64,000 nucleotides of DNA from NCBI RefSeq assembly GCF_022227765.1, contig NZ_JAJMLZ010000003.1, positions 1 through 64,000 on the forward strand. The letters are read 5' to 3'. The translations under genes and the position numbers were made by a program. Shown here one piece after another: positions 59,890-63,936 of this stretch; the stretch's first letter is position 1, and each line of letters opens with the position of its first letter. The notes under the pieces are model-generated. The model saw nothing but the letters and a program-made list of their open reading frames with translations, was not told the origin of the DNA and did not search any database. The DNA comes from Ectothiorhodospira shaposhnikovii. Lineage in GTDB: Bacteria > Pseudomonadota > Gammaproteobacteria > Ectothiorhodospirales > Ectothiorhodospiraceae.

Positions 59890-62067
59890 TCAGCCGGTTG
59901 CCGGCTGGAGCAGGATGCCCGCCAGCGGCGGCAGAGTGAGCACCACGGAGTAGGGTTTCCCCATCCAGGGTATGTCTTCGGCTTCCACTTCCAGGTTGCC
60001 CAGATTGCCGCCGCCGTAGTAGTGGGAGTCGGAGTTGAAGATCTCCCGATAGCGGCCGGGGCCCGGTACGCCGATGCGATAGCCTTCCCGGGGTACGGGG
60101 GTGAAGTTCAGGGCGCTGATGATGAACTGGTTGCCGTCTTCGGTCTTGCGCAGGTAACTCAGGACCGACTGGGCGGCGTCATGACAGTCGATCCAGTCGA
60201 AGCCCTGCCATTCGAAGTCGAGGTGATGTAGCGCGGGCTGTTCCCGGTAGAGACGGTTGAGGTCGGCGACCAGGCGTTGGACGCCTTCGTGGAAGGGGTA
60301 TTGGAGCAGGTGCCATTCCATTTCCCGGGATGCGTCCCATTCGTTGCCCTGACCGATCTCGCAGCCCATGAACAGCAGTTTCTTGCCCGGGTAGCTCCAC
60401 ATGAGGGTGTAGAGCAGGCGCAGGTTGGCAAACCGCTGCCACTCATCGCCGGGCATGCGGTAGAGCAGGGAGCGCTTGCCGTGGACCACTTCGTCGTGGG
60501 AGAAGGGCAGCACGAAATTTTCGGTGAAGGCATAGAGCAGACCGAAGGTGAGCCGGTCGTGATGGTAGTGGCGGTGGATGGGGTCCTTCTTGAAATAGTC
60601 CAGGGTGTCGTTCATCCAGCCCATGTTCCACTTCATGGCAAAGCCCAGGCCTCCCAGCCAGGTGGGACGGGTGACCTGGGGCCAGGACGTGGATTCCTCC
60701 GCGATGATCAGGGCCCCGGGATGGCGGCCCTGGACGGTACTGTTCAACTCCCGCAGGAACTCAATGGCATCCAGGTTTTCGTTGCCGCCGAACTTGTTGG
60801 GTACCCAGTCACCGGGTTCCCGGGAATAGTCCAGGTAGAGCATGGAGGCCACGGCGTCCACCCGCAGACCGTCGATATGGAATTCCTCCACCCAGTACAT
60901 GGCGCTGGAGACGAGGAAGTTCCTCACCTCGTTGCGGCCGTAATTGAAGATCAGGGTGCCCCAGTCACGGTGTTCGCCCAGGCGAGGGTCTTCATGCTCG
61001 TACAGGGCGCTGCCGTCGAAGCGGGCCAGCCCGTGGGCGTCCTTGGGAAAATGTCCCGGCGCCCAGTCCAGCAACACGCCGATGCCGTGTTCGTGGCAGA
61101 GATTGACGAAATAGCGGAAGTCATCCGGTTCGCCGAAGCGGCTGGTGGGGGCGTAATAGCCGGTGGTCTGGTAGCCCCAGGAGCCATCATAGGGGTGTTC
61201 GGTGATCGGCAGCAGTTCCACATGGGTGAAGCCCATGCGGGTGACATAGTCCACCAGTTCCCGGGCCAGTTCCCGGTAATTGAGAAACTGGCCGTCTGCG
61301 TCCCGCCGCCAGGAACCCAGGTGCACCTCATAGACGGACATGGGGCGGTGCAGCCAGGCCTCGTTGCAGCGATCCGCCAGCCAGGCCTGGTCGGACCACT
61401 GGAAACGGCTGGGAGGGCTGACCACCGCTGCGGTGCGGGGGCGCAGTTCAAAGCGCTGACCGTAAGGGTCGGCCTTGAGCAGGATGGCGTCGGTGTCGCG
61501 GTTGCGGATTTCGTACTTGTAGAGGGCGCCGGGCGCCATGCCGGGGATGAACAGCTCCCACACCCCGCTGCCGCCGCGTACCCGCATGGGATGGCAGCGG
61601 CCGTCCCAGCGGTTAAAGTCGCCGACCACGGACACCCGTTCCGCGGCGGGTGCCCAGACCGCGAACCGGACGCCCTGAATGCCGTCTACTTCATGAAGAT
61701 GGGCGCCCAGGAATCGGTAGGCGTGCCAGTGGCGCCCCTCGTTGAACAGGTGGATGTCGAAGTCCGGCACCTGGGGGGCGAAACAGTAGGGATCGTAGGC
61801 AATCTGCTCGTGGCCATGACCATCACTCCATCGTATGCGATAGTGTGAGGGCAGGGCGTCGCGGGGGCCGCGCCACTCGAACAGCCCCTGTTTGCCGACG
61901 GGCTTCATGGGGGCGTTGAGTTCCATGATGCCGGCCTCGCGGGCGAAGGGTAGCAGGGCGCGCACCACGCACTGCCCCGCCTCCATGTGACGACCCAGAA
62001 AGGCAAAGGGGTCGTGATGCCGTGAGTCAAGGATACGTTGGAGATGTTCGTTGTACGATGTAGGCAT
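59890..62067 (-). CDS. glgB: 1,4-alpha-glucan branching enzyme
   Basis: The 725-aa GH13 enzyme has an N-terminal CBM48/N1-N2 part ([25 protein letters not shown] begins near residue 128), then the TIM barrel with [10 protein letters not shown], nucleophile Asp in [18 protein letters not shown] (~residue 400), acid Glu in IIAEEST (~460) and [10 protein letters not shown] (~525). It makes alpha-1,6 branches in glycogen. It is divergent from glgC, with the hairpin-rich element between them. Confidence 0.97.
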
Positions 62068-62261
62068 GAGAGGTTCCGTGGCTGGCGCGGCGGTGTGGCG
62101 GCACTTTCCGTGGCTGCAGAAATGATGTAATAGATTCGAAACAGGGACATCGCACTATGATAAGCGGGCCATGCCGGGGGCTGAAGTACCCGATTGAGTC
62201 AACCCTATCATGAGCAGCGTGACCGAGTCCCCCATTGACCCGGGTCCGGGAAAGTCAGCGT
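62068..62261. other. glgB upstream region
   Basis: This ORF-free stretch contains the presumed glgB promoter on the minus strand (a TATCAT-like box near 62155), but no strong -35. Its last ~20 bases abut the LE-like hairpin and would be the guide if the neighbouring element makes an IscB-type omega RNA. Confidence 0.35.
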
Positions 62262-62666
62262 CAACTACCCCCGACTGAAGTCGGGGGCTTGCCTGCCTGC
62301 CGCGTCGCAGGTGAAAGCAAGCCGGGTTGACCAGCCTGAGCCCGCCTGAGCAGGACGCTCGAAAGGGGCTACGTTTGCAACAGGTCGTCAAGACCCACCG
62401 GCGGATGCTTCCTCAGTCTGCCGCTCTGGAAGGTTGGGATCATGCTGGCGAAAGGTAAAGCGCCGAAGGTTCCAGTCGCCGCGCCAGCGGGAGCCGGTTG
62501 CAGACATTGGCGAGGGGAGATAGGGCGAAAGCCCTGCGTCACTGGTGCCCTTTACGGGGCAGAGCCTTGCGGCCCAGTGGGTGGAAGGCCCACACCTTTT
62601 CCTGTGGCTGTAATACCGCAGCCGCAATTCCTCCCGCGATTGAAATCGCGGGTTTCCTTGCGGAAA
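62262..62666 (+). mobile_element. ORF-less IS200/IS605-like element (MITE- or HEARO-type)
   Basis: The left end has CCCCCGAC-TGAA-GTCGGGGG (62268-62287) inside the string CAACTACC..GGGGGCTTG, and the right end has CCCGCGAT-TGAA-ATCGCGGG (62633-62652) inside ATTCCTC..GGTTTCC. The shared TGAA loop and these flanks are typical of IS200/IS605-family subterminal hairpins. About 345 bp lies between them, with no TnpA, TnpB or IscB/IsrB reading frame. The right end finishes in a TTTCC-TTGC-GGAAA hairpin that abuts the glgC start codon. Family assignment is inference. Confidence 0.6.
62286..62475 (+). ncRNA. Candidate HEARO/omega-RNA-like structured RNA
   Basis: Nested stems can be drawn: GGCTTG/CAAGCC (62286-62291 with 62318-62323) enclosing CCTGC/GCAGG; GGGTTGAC with GTCAAGACCC (62324-62331, 62387-62396, 2-nt bulge); GGCGGA/TCTGCC (62400-62422); and CTGGAA/TTCCAG (62426-62431, 62470-62475) enclosing GGCG/CGCC. 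A structured RNA straight after an IS200/IS605-type left hairpin is the arrangement of IscB-associated HEARO RNAs. No protein partner is present. Confidence 0.45.
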
Positions 62667-62670
62667 GATT

Positions 62671-63936
62671 ATGAAATCACAATCTCAACGCTTCGTCAGT
62701 CGCATCACCCGAGACACCCTGGCATTGATCCTTGCCGGGGGGCGGGGGTCCCGTCTCAAGCAGCTCACCCTGTGGCGCGCCAAGCCGGCGGTACCCTTCG
62801 GCGGCAAGTTCCGGATCATCGACTTTCCGCTGTCCAACTGCATCAACTCGGGTATCCGTCAGGTGGGAGTGCTCACCCAGTACAAGTCCCATTCCCTGAT
62901 CCAGCACATCCAACGCGGCTGGGGGTTCCTGCGCGGGGAGTTCGGCGAGTTCGTGGAACTGCTGCCGGCCCAGCAGCGCATCGAGACTTCCTGGTATGAA
63001 GGGACGGCGGACGCAGTCTATCAGAACCTGGACATCATCCGTGACCATGACCCGGGGTACGTTCTCATCCTGGCCGGCGATCATATCTACAAGATGGACT
63101 ACGGCGACATGATCGCCTACCACGTGGAGTCCGGCGCCGACATGACCGTCGGATGCCTGGAGGTGGATCTGGAAACCGCCCGGGGGTTTGGCGTCATGGC
63201 GGTGGACGGAGACGGCCGGGTGCGTCAGTTCACGGAAAAACCGGCGCAGCCCCAGAGCATTCCCGACAAGCCGGACAAGGCGCTCGCCTCCATGGGGATC
63301 TATGTCTTCAATACCCGCTTCCTGTTCGAACAGCTGATCAAGGATGCGGATACCCCGGGCTCCAGCCATGATTTCGGCAAGGACATCATCCCCAACGTGA
63401 TCAAGTCCTATCGGGTGATGGCGTATCCCTTCCGGGACGTGCAGACCGGTTCCCAGGCCTACTGGCGTGACGTGGGGACCATCGACTCCTACTGGCAGGC
63501 CAATCTGGAGCTGATCGGCGTGACGCCGGAACTGAATCTTTACGACATGGACTGGCCCATCTGGACCTACCAGGAGCAGTTGCCGCCGGCCAAGTTCGTG
63601 TTTGACGACGATGACCGGCGCGGCATGGCAGTGGATTCCATGGTCTCCGGGGGTTGCATCATCTCCGGTGCGCTGGTGCGACATTCCTTGCTGTTCTCCA
63701 ATGTGATCGTCAACTCCTTCAGCCAGATCACCGATTCCGTGGTCCTGCCCGATGTGGAGATCGGTCGTCATTGCCGGATTCACAAGGCCGTGATCGACAA
63801 GGGTTGCCGGATTCCCGAAGGCATGGTAATCGGTGAAGATCCGGTGGAGGATGCCAAGCGCTTCCATGTCTCGGATGGCGGTGTGACCGTGGTGACGCCC
63901 GAAATGCTCGGCAACATGCCCCGCTATGCCCGCTGA
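62671..63936 (+). CDS. glgC: Glucose-1-phosphate adenylyltransferase
   Basis: The 421-aa enzyme has the pyrophosphorylase loop [17 protein letters not shown] (~residues 17-33), the catalytic region GTADAVYQN and [11 protein letters not shown], the glucose-1-phosphate site FTEKP, and a C-terminal left-handed beta-helix. It makes ADP-glucose, the control point of glycogen synthesis. The ribosome site (GGAAAG) is only 3 bp from the ATG and lies within a hairpin of the element described upstream. Confidence 0.97.

Follow-up and report, generated by a model that had tools for sequence, protein, structure and literature searches.

The closest described relatives of the element reported here are the omega RNAs of IscB nucleases, represented in Rfam by the HEARO family (RF02033). 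Altae-Tran et al. reportedly described in 2021 stand-alone omega RNAs alongside IscB in Ktedonobacter racemifer, with loci that outnumber iscB genes, implying use in trans; stand-alone omega RNAs and the preference of HEARO for ATGA or GTGA are said to go back to that work and to the 2009 study of Weinberg et al. The guide of OgeuIscB is the 5′ segment of the omega RNA, roughly 16 to 17 nt according to PMC9640706; work on IsrB (PMC9581776) looked for the motif downstream of the target and saw nicking of targets with TTGA or ATGA. For HEARO nucleases, PMC9755519 gives a HEARO RNA match in 65% of their 5′ regions, and a term search of its main text met neither standalone nor ATGA. A peel-and-paste model for the retention of TnpB elements is set out in PMC11870625. 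Our literature search, which went by titles and the openings of abstracts and covered subscription journals thinly, showed among the papers listed none on trans-encoded IscB guides, start-codon placement or the genera treated here.

The window, by which we mean the whole 64-kb stretch of Ectothiorhodospira shaposhnikovii DNA that was analysed, contains a full-length match to the HEARO covariance model (E 3.9e-20, model positions 1 to 211 of 211). The match lies far beyond chance, passes the family's gathering threshold of 83 bits and is, at that threshold, the sole non-tRNA match within the window. Folding the single strand from 62240 to 62690 gave a z score of -2.26, and 0 of 100 shuffled sequences folded equally well. 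The preliminary description of this DNA had proposed an orphan HEARO/omega-RNA-like element between two hairpins with identical TGAA loops and had named a covariance search among its checks; both hairpins are present, and the search returned the RNA over the whole model. The features of the locus are as follows.

59890..62067, minus strand: glgB, branching enzyme, divergent neighbour (gene prediction, domains)
62240..62259, plus strand: flanking DNA, presumed source of an omega RNA guide of about 16 to 20 nt (homology with IscB omega RNAs)
62260..62670, plus strand: whole element, 411 bp, between ...GGGAAAGTCAGC and ATGAAATC (empty sites in congeners G002, locus L097, and G004, locus L098)
62260..62523, plus strand: HEARO/omega RNA scaffold (RF02033, 103.2 bits)
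62268..62287, plus strand: left-end hairpin CCCCCGAC-TGAA-GTCGGGGG (sequence)
62334..62338, plus strand: outer helix, 5′ strand GCCTG (Rfam structure line; one of five pairs non-standard in the window copy)
62507..62511, plus strand: outer helix, 3′ strand TTGGC (Rfam structure line)
62557..62593, plus strand: 3′ module, GGGCAGAGCCTTGCGGCCC and the hairpin GTGGGTGGAAGGCCCAC at 62577-62593 (alignment of 31 elements, pair counts)
62633..62652, plus strand: right-end hairpin CCCGCGAT-TGAA-ATCGCGGG (sequence)
62660..62667, plus strand: right-end tail GCGGAAAG (comparison with siblings)
62671..62674, plus strand: ATGA of the right flank, presumed target-adjacent motif, whose ATG is the glgC start (empty sites)
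62671..63936, plus strand: glgC, glucose-1-phosphate adenylyltransferase, 421 aa (Pfam NTP_transferase and hexapeptide domains)

As had been proposed, no gene for a transposase, TnpB, IscB or IsrB was found inside the element. The open frames of at least 60 aa that overlap it (78, 79 and 185 aa) were judged mechanical, and tblastn with a resident IscB as query gave no match there. The arrangement that marks IscB OMEGA systems, with iscB directly downstream of the omega RNA, is therefore absent from the window element. A search for sigma-70-like promoters between 62000 and 62750 found none, a point against the reading favoured below.

The insertion can be read to the base, because in two members of the same genus (G002 and G004) ...GGGAAAGTCAGC joins ATGAAA, the start of glgC, directly, and in the window these halves are split by 62260-62670. 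Since the empty sites of the congeners are continuous, the element measures 411 bp, lies directly before ATGA and has no target-site duplication; its ends, first placed at 62262 and 62666, are thereby moved to 62260 and 62670. A second exact empty site was found for an Ectothiorhodospira magna sibling (L141) that lies before a 457-aa gene, and that site is unoccupied in G002, G004 and the genome of the window (G000). An exact search for the left end and the 3′ module found the element in 0 of 22 other glgC regions, so the insertion at glgC looks recent.

Because the guide of OgeuIscB is the 5′ segment of its RNA, we place the presumed guide of this element at about 62240-62259, which agrees with the earlier placement of a guide upstream of the left end. 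The presumed guide region and ATGA are unbroken in G002 and G004, as a guide taken from the 5′ flank with a motif 3′ of its target would lead one to expect, and the natural target would thus be the empty allele. The preliminary description had also suggested a search for a target matching the upstream ~20 nt; within the window's own genome the 19 bases at 62241-62259 have a single exact occurrence, their own locus. Places with two and three mismatches (contigs C33 and C1) were tried as a second target and rejected, since ATGA does not follow them, and a reversed control also gave 2 chance matches; this search thus found no trans target for the guide in its own genome.

Set against the known systems, the locus shares with HEARO and IscB omega RNAs the full model match, the presumed guide directly 5′ of the scaffold and an element that starts at the scaffold, and it differs from the iscB-linked HEARO copies of the same genome in lacking iscB in cis and in having the 3′ module and a swap in the outer helix. 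The stand-alone omega RNAs reported from Ktedonobacter racemifer are alike in that omega RNA loci outnumber iscB genes; what differs here is the base-exact ends, the 3′ module, the mostly Shine-Dalgarno-like right end and, in two genera, a seating that is mostly at start codons. IS200/IS605 and ISC elements and their MITE or PATE derivatives resemble the element in having subterminal hairpins at both ends, no target duplication, a fixed flanking tetranucleotide and non-autonomous copies, whereas the cargo of the window element is a conserved guide RNA. As in TnpB peel-and-paste, the guide would record the insertion site and excision or an empty allele would restore the target, with the difference that the nuclease here would be IscB in trans; the guide region and ATGA that remain unbroken in congeners fit the retention model as given for TnpB in PMC11870625. 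The class of element is known; as far as our searches reach, no description exists of the 3′ module, of the seating at start codons or of a right end that resembles a ribosome-binding site.

A guide of this kind would need a nuclease in trans, as the preliminary description pointed out, and a candidate is at hand. The genome (39 contigs) contains three HEARO matches and two RRXRR-family genes, the latter being two open iscB genes (C1 and C35) that each adjoin one of the other two HEARO copies. Both encode 443-aa proteins with RRXRR and HNH domains; the C1 protein, which alone was compared with solved IscB chains, matched TbaIscB at 2.7e-49 and OgeuIscB at 7.6e-30. Because the element provides a guide RNA only and iscB genes lie elsewhere in the genome, it has the look of a guide with a borrowed enzyme. 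We favour, at a probability of about 60%, the reading that this is a nuclease-dependent, non-autonomous element with IS200/IS605-type ends that carries an IscB-type omega RNA as its sole recognised cargo, and that IscB acting in trans cuts its unoccupied sites. A Y1 transposase in trans would move the element, and transcription through the glgC leader would yield an RNA whose 5′ guide is that leader. A resident IscB would bind this omega RNA in trans and cut alleles that still have the guide sequence next to ATGA, namely empty sites, including those left by excision; repair of the cut allele would then copy the element back. The element would in this way be kept by a nuclease encoded elsewhere, and the ribosome-binding-site-like stretch of its right end, weakened in the window copy, would keep the host gene translated.

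The window element belongs to a family. We searched 192 genomes, its own included, with filters that lose weak HEARO matches: HEARO appeared at E 0.001 or better in 14 genomes (six above the family cut-off) and RRXRR in 12 (11 above cut-off). A closer HEARO scan that included weak matches gave 23 in E. magna B7-7 (G003), 10 in Thiorhodospira sibirica ATCC 700588 (G013), two each in G007 and G114, and at least 114 in G161, for which scoring covered 126 of 282 candidates; RRXRR matches, several of them fragments, numbered nine in G003, one in G013, two in G007, one in G114 and five in G161. The surplus of HEARO over RRXRR matches in G013 and G161 speaks for the borrowed-nuclease reading. Standalone elements of the window's build came to 17, one in G000, seven in G003 and nine in G013, the seven excluding fragments, contig-end copies and iscB-linked copies among the 23 HEARO matches of that genome. 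This build occurs once in the window's own genome, in which other copies with like ends do exist, as a copy search suggested in the preliminary description brought out. A pattern scan of the genome contig collection for the common 3′ module yielded 104 stretches, 41 of which match the standalone-element profile. Thirty-one are nearly full-length, comprising 16 already known from G003 and G013 and 15 new ones (five in Allochromatium palmeri, six in A. humboldtianum and four in metagenome genomes); the other 10 are partial and were left unused, and three such loci (L200, L202 and L250) have no HEARO at cut-off. The siblings of the window element thus total 31, 27 in purple sulfur bacteria and four in metagenome genomes, and HEARO was found at cut-off in all 14 that were submitted from among the 15 new elements.

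Across the standalone elements, the RNA fold is kept by compensatory changes. The Rfam structure, extended by the module and right hairpins, was applied to 31 of the 32 elements (L210 was left out because its left end lies outside the profile match) and proved 90.7% paired. Pairs changed on both sides numbered 36; shuffles gave 17.0 (sd 2.1), and no slid version exceeded 17. Relatedness among copies inflates the shuffle comparison and the structure was drawn partly from the same sequences, though the slid controls still fall far below. The 3′ module, GGGCAGAGC.T..CGGCCC followed by a GGTG.AA.GCC hairpin, is common to the standalone elements and was seen in none of the iscB-carrying copies read. 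For the 14 aligned elements that the pattern scan supplied, part of its conservation follows from how they were found; the other 17 are free of that bias, and so is the hairpin, which lay outside the search pattern. Because the fold is conserved and the module is absent from iscB-carrying copies, the standalone elements look like an old lineage and not like fresh decay, with the proviso that part of the covariation may predate the loss of iscB in ancestors.

Of all helices in the standalone elements, the outer one pairs worst (74.5%, with one pair mostly non-standard). It reads GCC/GGC in 16 of the 17 elements from G000, G003 and G013, L085 being the exception, whereas 10 copies linked to iscB in these two genera have GGG/CCC; L145 and L147 gave no clean 3′ strand in this typing. 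Relative to the resident iscB-linked copies, the window helix carries a two-pair swap that keeps the pairing. As the helix is swapped in this way and poorly paired, the fit of the RNA to a resident IscB is not certain. Outer-helix type was dropped as a general mark of standalone elements, since the iscB-linked L152 and L159 (G114 and G161) are also GCC/GGC.

That swap bears on whether some nuclease besides the two resident IscBs uses the RNA, such as a lost or plasmid-borne IscB or IsrB, a reading that we regard as unlikely. The near-uniform difference in helix type and the existence of GCC/GGC helices beside iscB in G114 and G161 speak for it, as does Thiorhodospira, where eight of nine standalone scaffolds mismatch the resident iscB-linked one (about 80% identity, 80.4%). 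In Ectothiorhodospira, however, the standalone scaffold cores are on average 93.2% identical to the iscB-linked omega RNAs of the genus and 85.7% identical to Thiorhodospira standalone cores, as would be expected if the resident enzyme used them or if they exchanged sequence with its locus, and the swap preserves the pairs. The ninth Thiorhodospira scaffold, L085 (G013, about 1.798 Mb), is 95.4% like the single resident iscB locus L078; it is an apparent recombinant, in which an L078-type scaffold is followed by the 3′ module of standalone elements and a right end of the iscB type. The proposal that the structured RNA is a host-adapted leader that regulates glgC by attenuation or translation control, with or without IscB, appears very improbable to us. 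The element does lie in sense orientation exactly at the start codon and has a terminator-like hairpin with a T-rich tail at 62577-62593, but the other glgC regions that lack the element give no sign of long retention there, and siblings precede different genes. Moreover, the module hairpin is conserved and the T run is not, being weak in Thiorhodospira and Allochromatium siblings, and terminator-like sites of this kind numbered 2 compared with 0.8 (sd 0.8) in shuffles.

A somewhat stronger competitor, which we nevertheless doubt, is an ordinary MITE whose omega RNA is the functionless leftover of an iscB element that lost its gene and which spreads only by a transposase acting on its ends. 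The subterminal hairpins, the fixed short flanking motif and the missing target duplication at two exact empty sites are those of IS200/IS605-type elements, and the element is short and gene-free and has several copies with like ends, as MITEs do. Its right hairpin region shares 45 of 46 bases with two 335-bp elements of the same genome that contain no omega RNA, so the ends alone appear able to spread. In E. magna, three iscB-carrying elements (L091, L092 and L145 of G003) have internal iscB deletions with omega RNA and ends intact, and from these sequences loss of the iscB gene seems to recur. The leftover reading sits poorly with the 31 standalone elements, in which many compensatory changes maintain the fold and a 3′ module is common to all. 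The preliminary description had offered a stand-alone guide RNA and a MITE as alternatives; the two do not exclude each other, because the siblings resemble a non-autonomous mobile element and a conserved omega RNA alike.

The two 335-bp elements without HEARO, L017 (G000:C38, about 152.3k) and L013 (G000:C1, about 111.4k), have the left end GTAAACAACCCGCGACTGAAGTCGC and right ends nearly identical to that of the window element, ending CGGAGGTTCT before the ATGA of an open frame. Further such right ends stand at the contig starts C35:50 and C9:1. The Y1 transposases of G000 are one complete (C3) and one partial (C36). The complete gene, at 7.6-9.3k of C3 (L126), is divergent from an adjoining tnpB and has no HEARO beside it; this tnpA-tnpB pair was considered as the mover, and neither a motif search nor the two flanking stretches read revealed similar ends. 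In G013, with its nine standalone elements, the Y1 matches are limited to two partial ones (E 1.5e-7 and 7.7e-6). Both points weigh against the reading we favour.

The position of the window element at a start codon recurs in its relatives. ATGA stands at all 32 standalone junctions, in a junction search that itself required RTGA. Under a strict test, by which the joined empty site must start a frame of 90 codons or more that is preceded by no more than 34 open codons, 15 of the 17 Ectothiorhodospira and Thiorhodospira elements lie at a start codon. Among ATGA sites of the window with the element removed, 46 of 550 pass, and 16 of 83 do so when sites that lie past codon 33 of a predicted gene are excluded; the corresponding P values are about 8e-15 and 2e-9, for a null taken from one window with independence assumed. 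The 15 later elements passed in three cases (L189, L209 and L280), giving 18 of 32 overall; seating is thus much weaker outside the two genera, which weighs against the favoured reading, and a start-codon position can no longer be claimed for every such element. Of the nine iscB-carrying copies whose right end was recognised, four passed. A distinct signal for stop/start overlaps proved weak, an upstream frame of at least 100 codons ending at the TGA being found in 4 of the 17 and 1 of the 15 elements versus 54 of the 550 ATGA sites.

The right ends of siblings mostly carry the Shine-Dalgarno-like tails GCGGAGAG, GCGGAGAA or GCGGAGGA. Near the right end, 15 of the 17 elements have a Shine-Dalgarno match of at least four bases, the exceptions being L085 and the window copy, in which it is weakened, and in 12 of the 15 later ones (all except L181, L207 and L224). 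It is missing from all nine iscB-carrying right ends, the tenth copy, L014, having no recognisable end. At the left end, the TGA of the hairpin loop (62276-62278) would be in frame with any upstream gene whose stop lay in the ATGA overlap. A loop stop after five codons in that frame occurs in 29 of 32 standalone elements (the left end of L210 being approximate) and in 9 of 9 iscB-carrying ones, a single shared feature and not many independent events. With TGA or TAA in the left loop, an overlapping upstream gene would gain only a few codons upon insertion.

We tentatively suggest, with rather less assurance than we attach to the borrowed-nuclease reading itself, that the standalone omega RNA elements of purple sulfur bacteria form a distinct class of nuclease-dependent mobile element that lodges at ATGA starts, punctuates translation with its ends and carries guides that make one resident IscB a multi-site homing nuclease. 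The sites would be ATGA start codons and at times the ATGA stop/start overlaps of operons; the in-frame stop of the left loop would serve the upstream gene, and the Shine-Dalgarno sequence of the right end the gene behind. Guides would be copied from the leaders of host genes, with the start codon as the target motif, and many elements would be protected at once. One IscB could serve many scattered guides with different targets; such a natural pairing of many guides with one nuclease would do without CRISPR arrays and might mark a step from transposon nucleases towards CRISPR-Cas9. Placement at start codons together with a ribosome-binding-site-like end would exemplify an element shaped for harmlessness in operons. 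Exact ends, known empty sites and genomes with at least 10 omega RNAs per iscB make the role of stand-alone omega RNAs directly testable. In G161, a gammaproteobacterium with 3.7 Mb, GTGA instead of ATGA stands at the end of several elements that were read, and these have another 3′ hairpin, GCCGGGAAAGACCGGC, with their parts in a similar order.
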